Notes under the pieces: model-generated | The model's database searches: none | What the model saw: only the letters and a program-made list of their open reading frames with translations | Told to the model about the DNA's origin: nothing | Shown: piece by piece, positions 11,042 to 27,321 of the stretch | Position numbering within the stretch: position 1 is the first letter of the stretch | How the letters are laid out: every line of letters begins with the position of its first letter | Program-made: the position numbers and the translations under genes | From: a virus | DNA length: 37,546 nucleotides | IMG/VR virus record: IMGVR_UViG_3300029267_001488 | Coordinates: 1-37,546 of that record | Reading direction: 5' to 3' (one strand)

Positions 11042-11260
11042 ATGAATGAGGGAACCACAATTCATATAACACCTGAGAATCGTCAGGCATTGAAATTAGA
11101 GAGTGTGAAGAGAAACATCACAATGCAAACATTAGCGAATGAAATAATCGCTTCATTTTTTAACGCCAATCCTGTTGTGCTACCAAAAACAATGGAAGAA
11201 CTCTACCCAGATACTGGTAGTGATGTGGCAATGAAAACCGAAACACCAGTGGAGGAATAA
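11042..11260 (+). CDS. Ribbon-helix-helix (CopG/Arc-type) protein
   Basis: 72 residues. 'TTIHITPENRQALKLESVKRN' and the following TMQTLANEIIASFF give a beta strand and two helices with the RHH pattern; the C-terminal 25 residues are acidic and flexible. RHH proteins bind DNA as dimers. As first gene of the operon, one base before folE, it is probably its autoregulator, possibly acting at the ATTAAT palindromes upstream. The start is set by AGGGG/GAGAGG upstream. Confidence 0.62.
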   Translation: MNEGTTIHITPENRQALKLESVKRNITMQTLANEIIASFFNANPVVLPKTMEELYPDTGSDVAMKTETPVEE

Positions 11261-11842
11261 ATGGCTGATTATGAAGAGAATATGGCAATTGATTTAAGTG
11301 ATATGGAACAATATATAAAGGATATGTTATTTTGTATAGGAGAGGACCCCAAGAGGGAAGGTTTATTAGAGACCCCACGGCGTGTACTGAAGAGTTGGAG
11401 GGAGTTATATAGCGGATATGGACTTGACCCATCGTCTATCCTTAAGACCACCTTTGCCGATGGTGCTTGCAAGGAAATGGTCATATGCAGGGATATAGAC
11501 TATTTTAGCATGTGTGAGCATCATATTCTACCATTTTACGGCAGAGTCCATATTGGGTATATTCCAAACAGTCGTGTTGTGGGGTTATCTAAACTCCCTC
11601 GTTTAGTTGAAGTGTTTTCCAGACGCCTGCAAATACAGGAGAAAATGACCGCCCAAATTGCTGACACTTTAATGGAAGTATTGCAACCCAAAGGCTGCAT
11701 GGTCATTGTAGAGGGAAAACATATGTGTATGATGGCAAGAGGTATAAAGAAACAAAATTCCATTATGACCACTTCAGCCATAAGAGGCGATTTTGAAAAG
11801 GCACAGGTAAGAGAGGAATTTTTAAATTTAATTAAATTATGA
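11261..11842 (+). CDS. folE: GTP cyclohydrolase I (FolE)
   Basis: 193 residues, full length for type IA FolE. It converts GTP to 7,8-dihydroneopterin triphosphate, the first step of both folate and 7-deazaguanine synthesis. Visible hallmarks: GEDPKREGLLETPRRV at 27-42, the zinc and active-site segment SMCEHHILPF (C85, H88), IGYIPNSRVVGLSKLPRLV at 98-116, QEKMTAQIADTL at 126-137 and the second zinc cysteine in HMCMMARG (C156). Strong ribosome binding site (GGAGGAATAA). In this operon with DpdA- and QueD-like genes its role is almost surely supply of deazaguanine precursor, not folate. Confidence 0.97.
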   Translation: MADYEENMAIDLSDMEQYIKDMLFCIGEDPKREGLLETPRRVLKSWRELYSGYGLDPSSILKTTFADGACKEMVICRDIDYFSMCEHHILPFYGRVHIGYIPNSRVVGLSKLPRLVEVFSRRLQIQEKMTAQIADTLMEVLQPKGCMVIVEGKHMCMMARGIKKQNSIMTTSAIRGDFEKAQVREEFLNLIKL

Positions 11843-12768
11843 TAGTACCATTTAAGACACCAGTTGATTATTTCACTCAAGCTCTGGATGGCAAACCAGA
11901 GAACATAAATAGGTTTTATCAAATTCAAAAAGATGACCCGCAGTGGCTAACATATGATAATGATTTACATATTTATCCATACGTTCATGCCGTTCCCTCA
12001 ATGCTCTCTATGGGGTGTAATAATAAATGCAAATTCTGCCCAACTGCTAAGTTACATAAAGGAAAGGTACATTTTGGCGATCCAGAAATTATAATACCAA
12101 ATTATAAAAATATGAATATTCATTTCATGGATGAGAATTTCTTCCGAAATGATATGGATGTGGTTTTACCGTTGTTAAGAAAATATAAAATAAAATGGCT
12201 GGCAATGTCCACATATAAAGAGACAATGAAGGTCATAGAAACATATAGTGAGGAATATTTATATAAATGCGGACTCAGATGTGTAGAGATGGGATTGGAG
12301 AATGTTGATTTAATGATGAAAGTGGATGAGGCGCCCTATTCATTTGATGAAATTGCACCGTATTATTTAAACATGACCTTCCTCCCCGGGGAGACTAAGG
12401 AAACAATTCTAAATAATGCTAAATGGATGAGAGAGAGGATGCGTTCTTTAGAGCATCCCATTCATTTTAATAACGGTGTTTGGTGGGCACCTGGTCAATT
12501 TTATTATCCATATGGTAGAAAGCATAAAGATGGAATAATGTTAGATGGCAAATACGCAAGGACACAACCCACATATATTCCAAACTCTTTTTTAGATCAG
12601 GATATGGAGATAGTGGATTTAGAAGATGTTAATTATCATAGCCAGTTAACATATGACTTTAAACTATATCCAGAGAAGGATGAATACAACATAAGAGAGT
12701 TCATCTCAGGTGATGTAAAAAGAGCAATGTGGGTTGTTGTTGGATTGAGGGTGGAGGGTATAGAATGA
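11839..12768 (+). CDS. Radical SAM enzyme of the deazaguanine operon (not canonical QueE)
   Basis: 309 residues. C60, C64 and C67 (MGCNNKCKFCP) form the radical SAM CxxxCxxC. Downstream, IHFMDENFF (94-102), VEMGLEN (149-155) and FLPGETKETI (181-190) match the TIM-barrel layout of the MiaB/B12-radical-SAM/Elp3-like branch; there is no N-terminal cobalamin-binding domain. QueE, which would be expected here to make 7-carboxy-7-deazaguanine, has a QGEG...GCNLxCxWCDT pattern that is absent. So it either replaces QueE or further alters the deazaguanine or a sugar. Start overlaps the folE stop; end overlaps dpdA by ATGA. Confidence 0.8.
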   Translation: MIVPFKTPVDYFTQALDGKPENINRFYQIQKDDPQWLTYDNDLHIYPYVHAVPSMLSMGCNNKCKFCPTAKLHKGKVHFGDPEIIIPNYKNMNIHFMDENFFRNDMDVVLPLLRKYKIKWLAMSTYKETMKVIETYSEEYLYKCGLRCVEMGLENVDLMMKVDEAPYSFDEIAPYYLNMTFLPGETKETILNNAKWMRERMRSLEHPIHFNNGVWWAPGQFYYPYGRKHKDGIMLDGKYARTQPTYIPNSFLDQDMEIVDLEDVNYHSQLTYDFKLYPEKDEYNIREFISGDVKRAMWVVVGLRVEGIE

Positions 12769-13625
12769 AATTATATTTGGCTGGTTATGAAGTACAGCAT
12801 AATAGTTATAAATTATTACTACCCAAAGAGACAAATGTATTTTTGACATTTTATTATCCAAGAGAGGCATCAAAATTACTTCCCAAGTTAAAACCAGATG
12901 GACATAAAGGAACAATTATAATTGATAGTGGAGCGCATAGTTTCTTTGGCTATATAGGATTAAGTGTAACCTCATTTCATAAAAAGACAGGAAGTCATGA
13001 AAGTCCACATAGTTATTTTAAAAGGTATTTGGAATGGCTAAAGGAAAATTATGATTTATATGATTACTTTGTGGAGTTAGACCTACAGGAACTTGTTGGA
13101 TATGAAGAGGTTGAGAAATGGAGAGATGAATATAAGAATGCTGGAATATTTGATAAATGTATATTGGTTTATCACTCTAAAGATGGGTTTGAGAAGTTTG
13201 AATACATTGTGCATCGAAGTGATTGTAAATATGTAGGGATTGAAGGTATAAGAGGTCAACAAATCCTTCCTTATAATAAATATATTAAATATGCGTATGA
13301 CAATAATTGTAAAATACATGGATTCGCCTTCACTCGTTTTGGTTTATTAAATAAGTATCCATTTTATTCCACAGATAGTTCCTCATGGACAATTGGAGTT
13401 CGATATGGAAAGACTTGCGTATTCAATGGAACAAAGGGAATGAATGTTATTACATCCACTAAGAAAAACTTTATGAATTATAATTTAGATATAGAGATGC
13501 ACAATAGTAAAAGAGCAATTGAGAATTGTAGAATCAAGAGTCTTCATAATGCAAATGAGTATTTAAAAATGGAAACGTATTTAACAAACCTTTGGACGGC
13601 GAGAGGTATTAAATGGAAAGATTAA
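12765..13625 (+). CDS. dpdA: DpdA-like DNA-guanine transglycosylase (TGT superfamily)
   Basis: 286 residues. The start at 12765 (after GGAGGGTATAGA) is preferred over an in-frame ATG at 12729. Features shared with phage DpdA: 'MKLYLAGYE' at the N-terminus, IIIDSGAHSFF at 51-61 (the LDSGG-like Asp of TGTs, D54), VELDL around D106, YVGIEGIRG at 156-164, and HGFAFTRFGLLNKYPFYSTDSSSW at 185-208, the family's HGFGxTS...YPWYSxDSTSW block with candidate nucleophile D204. TGT-fold enzymes exchange guanine for a 7-deazaguanine; DpdA does so in DNA. Its place among folE, queD-like and ParB genes supports DNA modification. The exact base inserted is unknown. Confidence 0.82.
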   Translation: MKLYLAGYEVQHNSYKLLLPKETNVFLTFYYPREASKLLPKLKPDGHKGTIIIDSGAHSFFGYIGLSVTSFHKKTGSHESPHSYFKRYLEWLKENYDLYDYFVELDLQELVGYEEVEKWRDEYKNAGIFDKCILVYHSKDGFEKFEYIVHRSDCKYVGIEGIRGQQILPYNKYIKYAYDNNCKIHGFAFTRFGLLNKYPFYSTDSSSWTIGVRYGKTCVFNGTKGMNVITSTKKNFMNYNLDIEMHNSKRAIENCRIKSLHNANEYLKMETYLTNLWTARGIKWKD

Positions 13626-14581
13626 TATTCGTACCAATTGAACCGTTAGAAGAACGATACAGCACACAATGGATAAAATGGTTTAGAGAAGAGTTTAAGA
13701 AAAGGGATATACAATTCATAGAGGTTGGTGACGATAAACCAAGGGAGATCACTACAGGACAGTTCCTAGATGTTTACGACACCAACCTATATAAACTCAA
13801 TCAACTAACTCAGATCATAGAGTATATTAAGCTAGGGTTTGAAGGGACCATATTCTTTATGGACTTGTGGTTCCCAGGGATTGAGACAATAGCATATATT
13901 AGGGACTGTGCGAAGCGAATGATAAGGGTAGAGGGCATACTGCATGCGGGCACATATGACCCTAATGACTTCTTAGCCCAGAATGGGTGCGATATATGGG
14001 GCGCAGACCTAGAAAAGTGCTGGTTAAAGTGGGTAGATAGGGTATATGTAGCCACAGACTATCATAAGGCCCTTATAGACCACACTAGAGGGTCATATGG
14101 GCGTATAGAAGTGGTCCGTTTCCCTTGCTATGTGGGTGAGCAGAGGGCTGAGGGAGAGCGATTAAATAGGGTAGTGTTTCCGCATAGGCTGGCCCCTGAG
14201 AAACAGCCAGAGGTCTTTAGAGAGGTGGAGCAGAGGTATAGAGAGCAATACGGGGATGATGGGACTGTATTTGTACGCACTAAGGATGTATGTAAGAGTA
14301 AGGCCGAGTATTATACTCTTTTGGCTGAATCAAAGGTAGCCTTTTCCAGTGCTCTGCAAGAGACATTTGGAATAGCAATGTTAGAGGCATATAATCTAGG
14401 ATGTATCCCTGTTGTGCCCGACAGGATAAGTTATAAGGAAACATTTAAGACCATAAAAAGGTATACATCCCTAAAGGAAGCAATTGAGATGGTGCATAAT
14501 GGCATTCACAATTATAAACAACCACCATTGAGTGAATATGTTGAGGATGTAAGTGATATAGTGAGGAGGATAGTTATATGA
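13613..14581 (+). CDS. GT-B glycosyltransferase (GT4-like) in the DNA-modification operon
   Basis: 322 residues. The C-terminal domain carries the GT4 signatures: VVFPHRLAPEKQPEVF at 187-202 (donor-domain start), then ALQETFGIAMLEAYNLGCIPVV at 247-268 with the EX7E motif (E250, E258), which binds the nucleotide-sugar donor. The N-terminal domain would hold the acceptor. It overlaps dpdA by 13 bases and the queD-like gene by ATGA. In T-even-type phages glycosyltransferases decorate modified DNA bases; here the context suggests a sugar on a 7-deazaguanine or on its precursor. The central part is visibly richer in G and C than the flanks and the neighbours, suggesting separate acquisition. Confidence 0.8.
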   Translation: MERLIFVPIEPLEERYSTQWIKWFREEFKKRDIQFIEVGDDKPREITTGQFLDVYDTNLYKLNQLTQIIEYIKLGFEGTIFFMDLWFPGIETIAYIRDCAKRMIRVEGILHAGTYDPNDFLAQNGCDIWGADLEKCWLKWVDRVYVATDYHKALIDHTRGSYGRIEVVRFPCYVGEQRAEGERLNRVVFPHRLAPEKQPEVFREVEQRYREQYGDDGTVFVRTKDVCKSKAEYYTLLAESKVAFSSALQETFGIAMLEAYNLGCIPVVPDRISYKETFKTIKRYTSLKEAIEMVHNGIHNYKQPPLSEYVEDVSDIVRRIVI

Positions 14582-14937
14582 CTATAACCAAAGCAGATGA
14601 AATGTTTATAATAGTCAGTTTACAATTTGAAGGAATTCATCAATGGTCTAAATGCAATATAAAGGAAGTAAGTTTTCTAAGAGAACCGCATCGGCATATA
14701 TTTTATGTAGAAGTAATGGTTCGTGTTGGTCATGATGATAGAGATATTGAAATCATACAACTCAAAAGACAAATAGAAAAGTATATTAAAGAACAAGTAT
14801 GTTATCATGATAATGATTTAAGGGATAAGAGTTGTGAAATGATTGCACGACAACTATTAGAAAAATTTAATGCCCATAGCGTTAAAGTATTAGAGGATGG
14901 AGAAAATGGCGCATTAATTAGGAGAAGTTATGGATGA
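14578..14937 (+). CDS. queD: QueD-like (6-carboxytetrahydropterin synthase / PTPS fold) protein
   Basis: 119 residues. The zinc triad of the PTPS fold is visible as H21 (FEGIHQW) and H38/H40 (EPHRHIF). GHDDRDIE (51-58) and the C-terminal LEDGENGA (105-112) match a phage and actinobacterial QueD-like subfamily. QueD turns dihydroneopterin triphosphate into 6-carboxytetrahydropterin. The catalytic cysteine four residues before the HxH (C27 in E. coli QueD) is a leucine here (L34), so activity may differ; C26 is a possible substitute. Operon position between the glycosyltransferase and ParB-like gene. Confidence 0.7.
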   Translation: MTITKADEMFIIVSLQFEGIHQWSKCNIKEVSFLREPHRHIFYVEVMVRVGHDDRDIEIIQLKRQIEKYIKEQVCYHDNDLRDKSCEMIARQLLEKFNAHSVKVLEDGENGALIRRSYG

Positions 14938-15619
14938 TATTAATTTATTGGTTGACTTTAGTAAGTATAAATTAGTAAAGGTTAAGGATTTAATATTAGC
15001 CGATTGGAACTATAAAGAAGATGATGAACAATTGCTCGATAATTTAATACAAAACGTAAAGAGAAATGGACAGGTTGAGAATGTTATAATTCGACAATTG
15101 GCTGACGGCAGATATGAGGTCGTTAATGGAAACCATAGGCTGATGGCATTTCAGAAAATGAAACTAGAACAGATCGTTGCATATGATTTAGGAAGTGTAT
15201 CTTTAAATGAAGCAAAACGATTGGCAATTGAGACAAATGAAACCAAGTTCAAGGTTGATTCTATTAAACTTGCTCACACCATGAGTGACTTATTAAATGA
15301 ATTCGATAGAACAGATTTACAATCCACCATGCCTTATAGTGATGATGAAATAGACAATTTTGGTAAACTATTGGACTTTGATTGGAATGAATTTGATAAA
15401 GAAGTAGACGAATTAGAACAAGAAGTGAACCCAAGCGATATGTTTGCTATTACTTTAGAACTACCCGTTGGATTAGCAAAGAGGTTGAATGAGCAAATAG
15501 ATCGCATAAAGAAAATGTTACATCCTGATGAAGCGCACCTAGAAAAGATAAGTTATGTACAGCCAATTAATAAAATTGTGGAGTGCGTAGAAAGAATGGA
15601 GAAAGAGGAGATTGTTTAA
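14930..15619 (+). CDS. ParB/sulfiredoxin-fold protein (DpdB-like candidate)
   Basis: 229 residues. Residues about 14-110 form a ParB N-terminal domain: YKLVKVKDLILADWNY, LLDNLIQNVKRNGQVENVIIR and the box YEVVNGNHRLMAF (62-74), where GNHR stands for the usual G(E/H)RR/DGQHR; then EAKRLAIETNETKF. The C-terminal half is helical and acidic. In bacterial dpd islands DpdB, a ParB-like ATPase, is needed with DpdA to place preQ0 in DNA, so this last gene of the operon may play that part. Phages also carry ParB-domain proteins with other roles. Ribosome binding site AGGAG. Ends tail to tail with a minus-strand gene, stops overlapping. Confidence 0.72.
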   Translation: MDDINLLVDFSKYKLVKVKDLILADWNYKEDDEQLLDNLIQNVKRNGQVENVIIRQLADGRYEVVNGNHRLMAFQKMKLEQIVAYDLGSVSLNEAKRLAIETNETKFKVDSIKLAHTMSDLLNEFDRTDLQSTMPYSDDEIDNFGKLLDFDWNEFDKEVDELEQEVNPSDMFAITLELPVGLAKRLNEQIDRIKKMLHPDEAHLEKISYVQPINKIVECVERMEKEEIV

Positions 15620-26430: not shown

Positions 26431-27321
26431 ATGGGTATTAAAATTCAGTCAATACGGTTCTCACGAAGTTTCTTTGGAAATTATGAGTCGTGTGTGAAAT
26501 GGTTATCAGATCATGAATATGATTTTTCTCAGTATGAGGAATTTGATGACTATTTTGCTTTCGGTCAGATTGCCAAAGATAAGTTCACTGAAACCTCATT
26601 GCAGCCATTCAAACTGGACAGTGGCGTCGAAGCCGTAGTTGGTCTCGCAATTGAAACACAACCAAATTTCAATAACATACAGGATGCAGATTCAGTCAGT
26701 ATTCCTGAGAAATCTAATGCAGTATCACAAGAGGTTGCCTACGATGCTTTAAAGACATCATATTTAAAGCAACTTGAAACCTTTGTTGATGTTCTATCCA
26801 AATTATCTGAAGTCACTGAACCAATAAAGGCGATGAAGGATAGTTTGTTGACTGAACTAAAACAAGTCAATAAAACATCGGTTGAACTCGTTAATAAAAA
26901 TGAGTTACAAGATAATATTGATGAAGGTCAAATACAAATTTTTACTCCTATTATTAAAACAAAGGATGAGAAAATAGTATTTGGTGAGGTATTAGTTCCA
27001 AATACTGTAGATGGGCAGGAGCATGTCTATTCTGAAAAAGAAGTAGAGAAGGCCGCTCATTTCTGGATGAAAGAATACGGACAAATGGGTGAAATGCACA
27101 GCAATATGTTGTCTGATGACCAGATAAATATATTGGAAACCTATGTTGCACCTATGGGATTTGAATTTGAGAAGTTAGACGGAAAAATGCAGAAGGTGAA
27201 AAAAGGTACGTGGTTATTAAAGGTATTTGTGAAGTCTGACGAATTGTGGGATAAGGTGAAGAATGGTGACCTTAATGGATTTTCCATTGGGGGTCTTGCA
27301 ACTGTTGAGGATATTAAATAA
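26431..27321 (+). CDS. XkdF-like prohead maturation protease (S78_2-type)
   Basis: 296 residues. The C-terminal half (about 165-296) carries the XkdF/S78-type block: VFGEVLVPNTVDGQEHVYSEKEVEKAAHFWM, GEMHSN (about 216-221), KKGTWLLKVFVKSDELWDKV and LNGFSIGG. The catalytic histidine is likely in GEMH and the serine in GFSIGG, by analogy with S78 proteases. The N-terminal 160 residues are unrelated and helical, with an acidic-aromatic stretch (DHEYDFSQYEEFDDYF). It would process scaffold and capsid during head maturation. Confidence 0.75.
   Translation: MGIKIQSIRFSRSFFGNYESCVKWLSDHEYDFSQYEEFDDYFAFGQIAKDKFTETSLQPFKLDSGVEAVVGLAIETQPNFNNIQDADSVSIPEKSNAVSQEVAYDALKTSYLKQLETFVDVLSKLSEVTEPIKAMKDSLLTELKQVNKTSVELVNKNELQDNIDEGQIQIFTPIIKTKDEKIVFGEVLVPNTVDGQEHVYSEKEVEKAAHFWMKEYGQMGEMHSNMLSDDQINILETYVAPMGFEFEKLDGKMQKVKKGTWLLKVFVKSDELWDKVKNGDLNGFSIGGLATVEDIK

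Follow-up and report, generated by a model that had tools for sequence, protein, structure and literature searches.

A phage operon joining FolE and a DpdA-family transglycosylase to a GT4 glycosyltransferase and an AprD4-like radical SAM enzyme: a candidate route to a glycosylated 7-deazaguanine in DNA

Which modified base would be made by a phage operon in which genes for 7-deazaguanine chemistry are interleaved with a glycosyltransferase and a radical SAM enzyme? The question is raised by the virus record IMGVR_UViG_3300029267_001488, a linear 37.5-kb contig analysed over its whole length (37,546 nucleotides; hereafter the window), in which seven plus-strand genes at 11042-15619 lie upstream of terminase, portal and head genes. 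A sequence-only reading had taken these genes for an overlapping operon that supplies DNA with a 7-deazaguanine made by way of preQ0; its outline is supported by FolE, by a member of the DpdA family and by linked pathway genes, while the route through preQ0 is not. We conclude that the operon probably equips the phage DNA with a glycosylated 7-deazaguanine derived from 7-carboxy-7-deazaguanine (CDG). The kind of system, a DpdA-type DNA modification, is known; its branch with glycosylation and radical tailoring appears to be new.

For other phages, the genes that accompany the glycosyltransferase were counted in the loci of highest score and within flanks of no more than 8 kb, which makes absences soft. 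Among 63 non-redundant glycosyltransferase loci, 53 have the T-fold gene that had been read as QueD-like in the window, 47 have FolE, 45 QueE, 40 QueD and 52 a transglycosylase of any kind; at least one of FolE, QueD, QueE and a transglycosylase is near the glycosyltransferase in 61 of the 63. A set of 63 non-redundant loci found independently with the T-fold gene includes the glycosyltransferase in 54 cases. The gene order QueD-QueE-FolE-Tfold-rSAM-GT-DpdA (rSAM, radical SAM; GT, glycosyltransferase) is recurrent, for example in the loci L018, L026 and L053, and L012 has these genes plus ParB. Cultured phages with the glycosyltransferase/T-fold pair are ACP17, PAC2, Paride and other Pseudomonas phages of the PA5oct group, Phosso, BUCT-ZZ01 and X1. 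That the same genes are grouped again in distant phages argues that the grouping in the window is not due to chance, and membership of the glycosyltransferase and the radical SAM enzyme in the deazaguanine system is strongly supported by this conserved linkage.

The operon itself is as compact as first described: a check of the open reading frames found all seven genes at the positions originally given, with every frame open and neighbouring genes abutting or sharing 4-13 nt. Every start but that of the radical SAM gene (six of seven) has a purine-rich stretch resembling a Shine-Dalgarno sequence; the exception overlaps the stop of FolE, which fits translational coupling. The G+C content of the operon (0.359) is close to that of the whole window (0.357), and PADLOC gave no relevant match.

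Assignment of the gene at 12765 to the DpdA family, made earlier from a family block with its Asp residues, is confirmed by a match to PHROG 887 (E 2e-32) and by conservation of D54, D106, D204 and H185 in 56-58 of 59 family members; tblastn matches are to transglycosylases of CAjan, Seurat, mycobacteriophages and others, and a DpdA profile found chance matches only among PDB sequences. DpdA is a homologue of tRNA-guanine transglycosylase (TGT), and mannosyl- and galactosyl-queuosine, which like the proposed product bear a sugar on a 7-deazaguanine nucleoside, occur in animal tRNAs (PMC12518689), where the sugar is on the cyclopentenediol of queuosine. The operon could in principle serve a related, queuosine-like modification of tRNA by the phage. 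However, the 12765 protein, which the sequence-only reading allowed might turn out to be a tRNA TGT, has no match in Pfam at E up to 1 and so none to the tRNA TGT model, whereas it does match a family represented in phages such as CAjan, and DpdA-made deazaguanines in phage DNA are documented (PMC6884629). No tRNA gene was found in the window and QueC is missing in nearly all related records; a tRNA target is thus highly improbable.

The ParB-fold gene of the operon likewise proved to be what it had been called, in that ParB_N was identified in the 14930 product (E 3e-7); its NCBIfam matches are to general ParB models only, making it no more than a candidate DpdB. Its motif is NGNHR, in place of the DGQHR that we take to be typical of DpdB. 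L012, L013, L015, L022 and L047 likewise have this gene adjoining that of DpdA or of the glycosyltransferase.

For the glycosyltransferase, the structure prediction that had been suggested gave a confident AlphaFold model (pLDDT 94.5) with a GT-B fold, the closest folds being retaining GT4 enzymes that mostly use UDP-sugar donors (Z about 21-25). The active-site residues are intact, with the EX7E motif (E250, E258), R192 and K197 kept in 58-59 of 59 sequences, and the family has an N-terminal motif of its own, PIEPLEERY, in which E10, E13, R15 and Y16 are invariant in 59 of 59. A profile scan found the family on at least 395 viral contigs; 84,980 cellular genomes yielded three loci, all on contigs of metagenome-assembled genomes (MAGs) and all three also carrying the T-fold gene and pathway genes. 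Judged from these scans, hardly any members of the family lie outside viruses. A role in wall or lipopolysaccharide sugars, which had been named as a possible objection, is contradicted both by the pathway genes in these neighbourhoods and by the near-absence from cellular genomes, and we reject it.

It may still be asked whether the sugar is destined for the base at all. The DNA could hold plain 7-deazaguanine (dDG/dCDG), with the glycosyltransferase and the radical SAM enzyme acting elsewhere, for instance on a FolE-derived pterin or on a cell-surface sugar: FolE makes pterins, structural comparison lists the pterin glucosyltransferase BGluT (5zes, 9v0l), at Z about 22, as one neighbour of the glycosyltransferase, and in phages phiST and MA9V-3 the T-fold gene and the pathway occur with no glycosyltransferase nearby, which indicates that the base pathway can stand alone. 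Generic GT4 enzymes nevertheless outscore BGluT, and the glycosyltransferase keeps company with QueD, QueE, transglycosylases and the T-fold gene, all of them needless for pterin or wall chemistry, in a family nearly restricted to viruses. We consider the plain base unlikely and a glycosylated base the better account of the linkage.

Several other families were seen in these neighbourhoods. Matches of about 450 amino acids in L005 and L081-L091 that resembled the glycosyltransferase are a second, different GT4 and not the same gene; this second GT4 adjoins a DpdA2-like protein of 429 amino acids, and L081-L091 also have a GalE-like epimerase. A family of about 170-180 amino acids with no Pfam match is found near the glycosyltransferase in L073 (6989-7528), nine other loci and ACP17, and in 27 of the 63 non-redundant T-fold loci. 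A phosphoribosyltransferase is encoded at 2014-2427 of the window (profile E 1.3e-20); several large phages have members of its family close to the glycosyltransferase/T-fold pair, and it may act in base salvage or modification.

The identity of FolE is unambiguous, as had been expected from its motifs (Pfam E 1e-72; TIGR00063 236.9 bits against a cut-off of 181.6). The assignment of the 14578 protein to QueD did not survive. This protein is a member of PHROG 17812 and has only a remote kinship to QueD: the family profile matches, at E 0.004, a structure of QueD type (2dj6/2dtt), and the zinc histidines align. Among 121 aligned sequences the zinc triad H21, H38 and H40 is kept in 120-121, and R55, S85-C86-E87 and E106-D107 are essentially invariant, but the catalytic Cys of QueD, four residues before HxH, is Leu34 in all 121 and the Asp-His pair of QueD is not conserved. 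Canonical QueD proteins encoded on the same contigs keep C23, D70 and H71 in 62-64 of 65, with both Glu residues present, and canonical QueD also accompanies the T-fold gene in ACP17 and in Cellulophaga phage phiST, whose PhiST_gp040 belongs to the T-fold family. By these residues and this coexistence the T-fold product is an enzyme separate from QueD. In Chryseobacterium phage MA9V-3 (L009:6449-7333) the T-fold domain is seemingly fused to an N-terminal extension of about 180 amino acids.

What precursor the pathway delivers can be judged from the related loci. FolE is present in the window, and QueD and QueE are found in most related loci, whereas a search of 33 related viral records for QueC (PF06508) drew a blank in 32 and gave a single partial match of 22.9 bits in the other; the Acidovorax phage ACP17 record (L069, 156,281 bases) has no match. 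The absence of QueC makes CDG a more likely end point than preQ0, as far as gene content can tell. Decarboxylation of CDG is the most economical role we can suggest for the T-fold protein, given that the substrate-anchoring Glu and the zinc ligands are kept, that a new invariant Arg is available for a carboxylate and that the pathway stops at CDG. DpdL has reportedly been predicted by Cui et al. (2023) to be a CDG decarboxylase; the T-fold candidate would likewise act on CDG, a likeness that does not confirm orthology. QueD, QueE, YhhQ and GalE homologues were not found within the 37.5-kb window, and these genes may be located outside the linear fragment. A YhhQ-type queuosine-precursor transporter is encoded next to DpdA in L045 (10017-10688) and also in L051, L056, L038, L013, L007 and L010; most of these loci have the glycosyltransferase, precursor synthesis genes are absent from them, and the arrangement suggests phages that import the base.

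The radical SAM protein of the window has 309 amino acids and a CX3CX2C motif, and is without the N-terminal domain of about 130 amino acids found in its homologues. That it is not QueE, as had been proposed, is now well founded: in Foldseek the model, which is confident overall, finds AprD4 first (E 1.2e-7) and QueE only at 0.026, and true QueE coexists with radical SAM homologues in the same loci (for example L018, L026 and L053). The family profile has AprD4 (6fd2) as its best solved match (E 1.3e-23), followed by CysS (2.5e-12), and VIA-align of the window model again places AprD4 first (Z 14.1, root-mean-square deviation 3.1, 231 residues), with TsrM next at 11.8. AprD4, of apramycin biosynthesis, is a radical SAM diol dehydratase that acts on the pseudodisaccharide paromamine with a reductase partner, AprD3 (PMC5461906). 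The likeness covers the core and the C-terminal part of the window protein, with 15% identity in the structural alignment and no counterpart of the N-terminal domain, and shared ancestry with AprD4 is no proof of a shared substrate. A single-protein scan of IMG/VR with the window protein found no relative and tblastn against named phages gave no match; a profile built from the window and L012 proteins found three loci.

Other operons have a second, SPASM-type radical SAM (12 of the 63 non-redundant loci; at L032:8999-9649, L047:6523-7398, L014:8978-9946 and others), and these are loci where the AprD4-like type is missing. The best solved match of the second family profile is BtrN (4m7t; E 4e-22), a dehydrogenase acting on a cyclitol in butirosin biosynthesis; the likeness to BtrN concerns this alternative enzyme and not the window gene. 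Some loci have a GalE-like epimerase in place of the AprD4-like enzyme, and some carry the second GT4. Within the non-redundant viral set no locus has both the AprD4-like and the BtrN-like type, and GalE was seen with neither; an apparent co-occurrence of both types in four loci was rejected as cross-matches of QueE. One MAG contig, L177, combines the second type with a weak match to the first on the minus strand. That sugar-acting enzymes are interchangeable beside the glycosyltransferase favours a role in sugar tailoring, and from sequence and model it seems more likely that the window enzyme edits the sugar rather than the base. The sequence-only reading had the glycosyltransferase and the radical SAM enzyme both acting on the deazaguanine; their tie to the pathway holds, but direct action of the radical SAM enzyme on the base is not favoured. 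Such action would mean that the enzyme equips C7 of 7-deazaguanine with a carbon or oxygen handle for attachment of the sugar by the glycosyltransferase, and a handle would be required if the T-fold protein strips the carboxylate; TsrM, MiaB and other base- or ring-modifying enzymes rank after AprD4 in structure, and CysS is second by profile. AprD4 is above these enzymes by both measures, however, and the step looks accessory, with a radical SAM of either type in only 31 of the 63 loci (counted in stretches of at most 8 kb, some incomplete) and a GalE-like epimerase elsewhere. We regard a base-acting enzyme as possible but doubtful.

From the gene identities, catalytic residues and linkage we infer a route in which every reaction after FolE, the order of the steps, the sugar and its point of attachment are proposals. 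FolE would yield dihydroneopterin triphosphate, which QueD and QueE, supplied by the host or encoded on a part of the genome beyond the contig, would carry to CDG; the small zinc T-fold protein would convert CDG, most likely by decarboxylation, to 7-deazaguanine; and DpdA, aided by the ParB-like protein, would swap guanine in DNA for the CDG-derived base. The GT4 glycosyltransferase would draw on a nucleotide-sugar donor to link a hexose-type sugar to the base, either prior to its insertion or afterwards, and with unsubstituted 7-deazaguanine as acceptor the nucleophilic C7 would yield a C-glycoside. Afterwards the AprD4-like enzyme would dehydrate, deoxygenate or oxidise the sugar, and the bulky modification would protect DNA from restriction and other nucleases.

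Some observations weigh against this route. Decarboxylation of CDG would leave no hydroxyl or carboxyl handle, so that a C-C or N-glycosidic bond would be needed, and to our knowledge formation of such bonds is unusual for GT4 enzymes. L045, L051 and L056 have the glycosyltransferase, DpdA and YhhQ and no FolE, QueD, QueE or T-fold gene; they fit an imported base better than CDG, and the acceptor of the glycosyltransferase may differ between loci. QueD and QueE are not on the contig that carries the operon, and the window radical SAM, lacking its N-terminal domain, keeps 39 of 80 family-conserved positions, the remaining 41 being changed or absent, so its activity could be lost or altered. The last two observations might instead mean that the operon is decaying, with a truncated radical SAM and QueD and QueE lost, such that this phage makes little or no modified base while its relatives do. 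Against decay stand the seven open and tightly overlapping frames, the intact residues of FolE, DpdA, the glycosyltransferase and the T-fold protein, and the cluster motif and confident model of the radical SAM enzyme. Queuosine precursors are, moreover, often made by hosts, and L013 and L015 show a similar core of DpdA, glycosyltransferase, T-fold and ParB genes with no FolE, QueD or QueE in the stretch. We judge decay to be quite unlikely and retain a functional operon for a glycosylated 7-deazaguanine.

Table 1. Genes of the operon, with coordinates in the window and the basis of each assignment.
Position	Strand	Product	Basis
11042..11260	+	Ribbon-helix-helix-like small protein, 72 amino acids, possible operon regulator	Weak Antitox_RHH match, E 0.13
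11261..11842	+	FolE, GTP cyclohydrolase I (GTP to dihydroneopterin triphosphate)	Pfam, TIGR00063
11839..12768	+	AprD4-like radical SAM enzyme, CX3CX2C, proposed sugar-tailoring	Family profile, structure match
12765..13625 (ATG at 12765)	+	DpdA-family DNA guanine transglycosylase; D54, D106, H185, D204	PHROG 887
13613..14581	+	GT-B/GT4 retaining-type glycosyltransferase, proposed 7-deazaguanine glycosylation	EX7E (E250, E258), R192, K197
14578..14937	+	QueD-fold (T-fold) zinc protein, not QueD; candidate CDG decarboxylase (DpdL-like)	H21/H38/H40, Leu34
14930..15619	+	ParB-like protein, proposed DpdA accessory	ParB_N

Elsewhere in the window, the gene at 26431-27321 is head maturation protease-like; its best PHROG is labelled as a DNA methyltransferase, which is probably a mislabelling of the family.

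Known phage systems for 7-deazaguanine in DNA include those of 9g, CAjan and nt-1 (Hutinet et al., 2019, PMC6884629). The operon is like them in having FolE and a DpdA-family transglycosylase, in the QueD and QueE of its relatives and in its proposed anti-restriction role; unlike them, it shows no QueC, ArcS, Gat-QueC or QueF, and adds the GT4 glycosyltransferase, the AprD4-like radical SAM enzyme and a T-fold protein that is not QueD. The alpha- and beta-glucosyltransferases of phage T4 similarly put sugars on DNA bases, but theirs is 5-hydroxymethylcytosine, whereas the present GT4 family is tied to genes for 7-deazaguanine and is marked by a PIEPLEERY motif of its own. Our literature searches, partial in coverage, turned up no account of DNA containing a glycosylated 7-deazaguanine, and the phage deazaguanines that we know of have small substituents at C7.

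A broader proposal, which we put forward tentatively and think somewhat less likely to be right than wrong, is that the operon represents a widespread, undescribed branch of phage DNA hypermodification in which a radical-edited sugar (deoxy-, keto- or epimerised) is borne on 7-deazaguanine, possibly as a C7 C-glycoside, and in which swappable AprD4-like, BtrN-like, GalE-like and second-GT4 modules give rise to different sugar-bearing bases. If true, DNA bases would gain a new chemical class in the sugar-bearing 7-deazaguanine, which like the glucosylated cytosines would act as a bulky shield from nucleases, and radical SAM chemistry of the aminoglycoside type would gain a biological setting beyond antibiotic biosynthesis. 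Given that relatives of the glycosyltransferase accompany the same pathway in many phages, a whole class of sugar-bearing bases may have been overlooked; the presence of the glycosyltransferase/T-fold pair in cultured phages (ACP17 and the PA5oct group including Paride) makes the idea testable on existing virion DNA.

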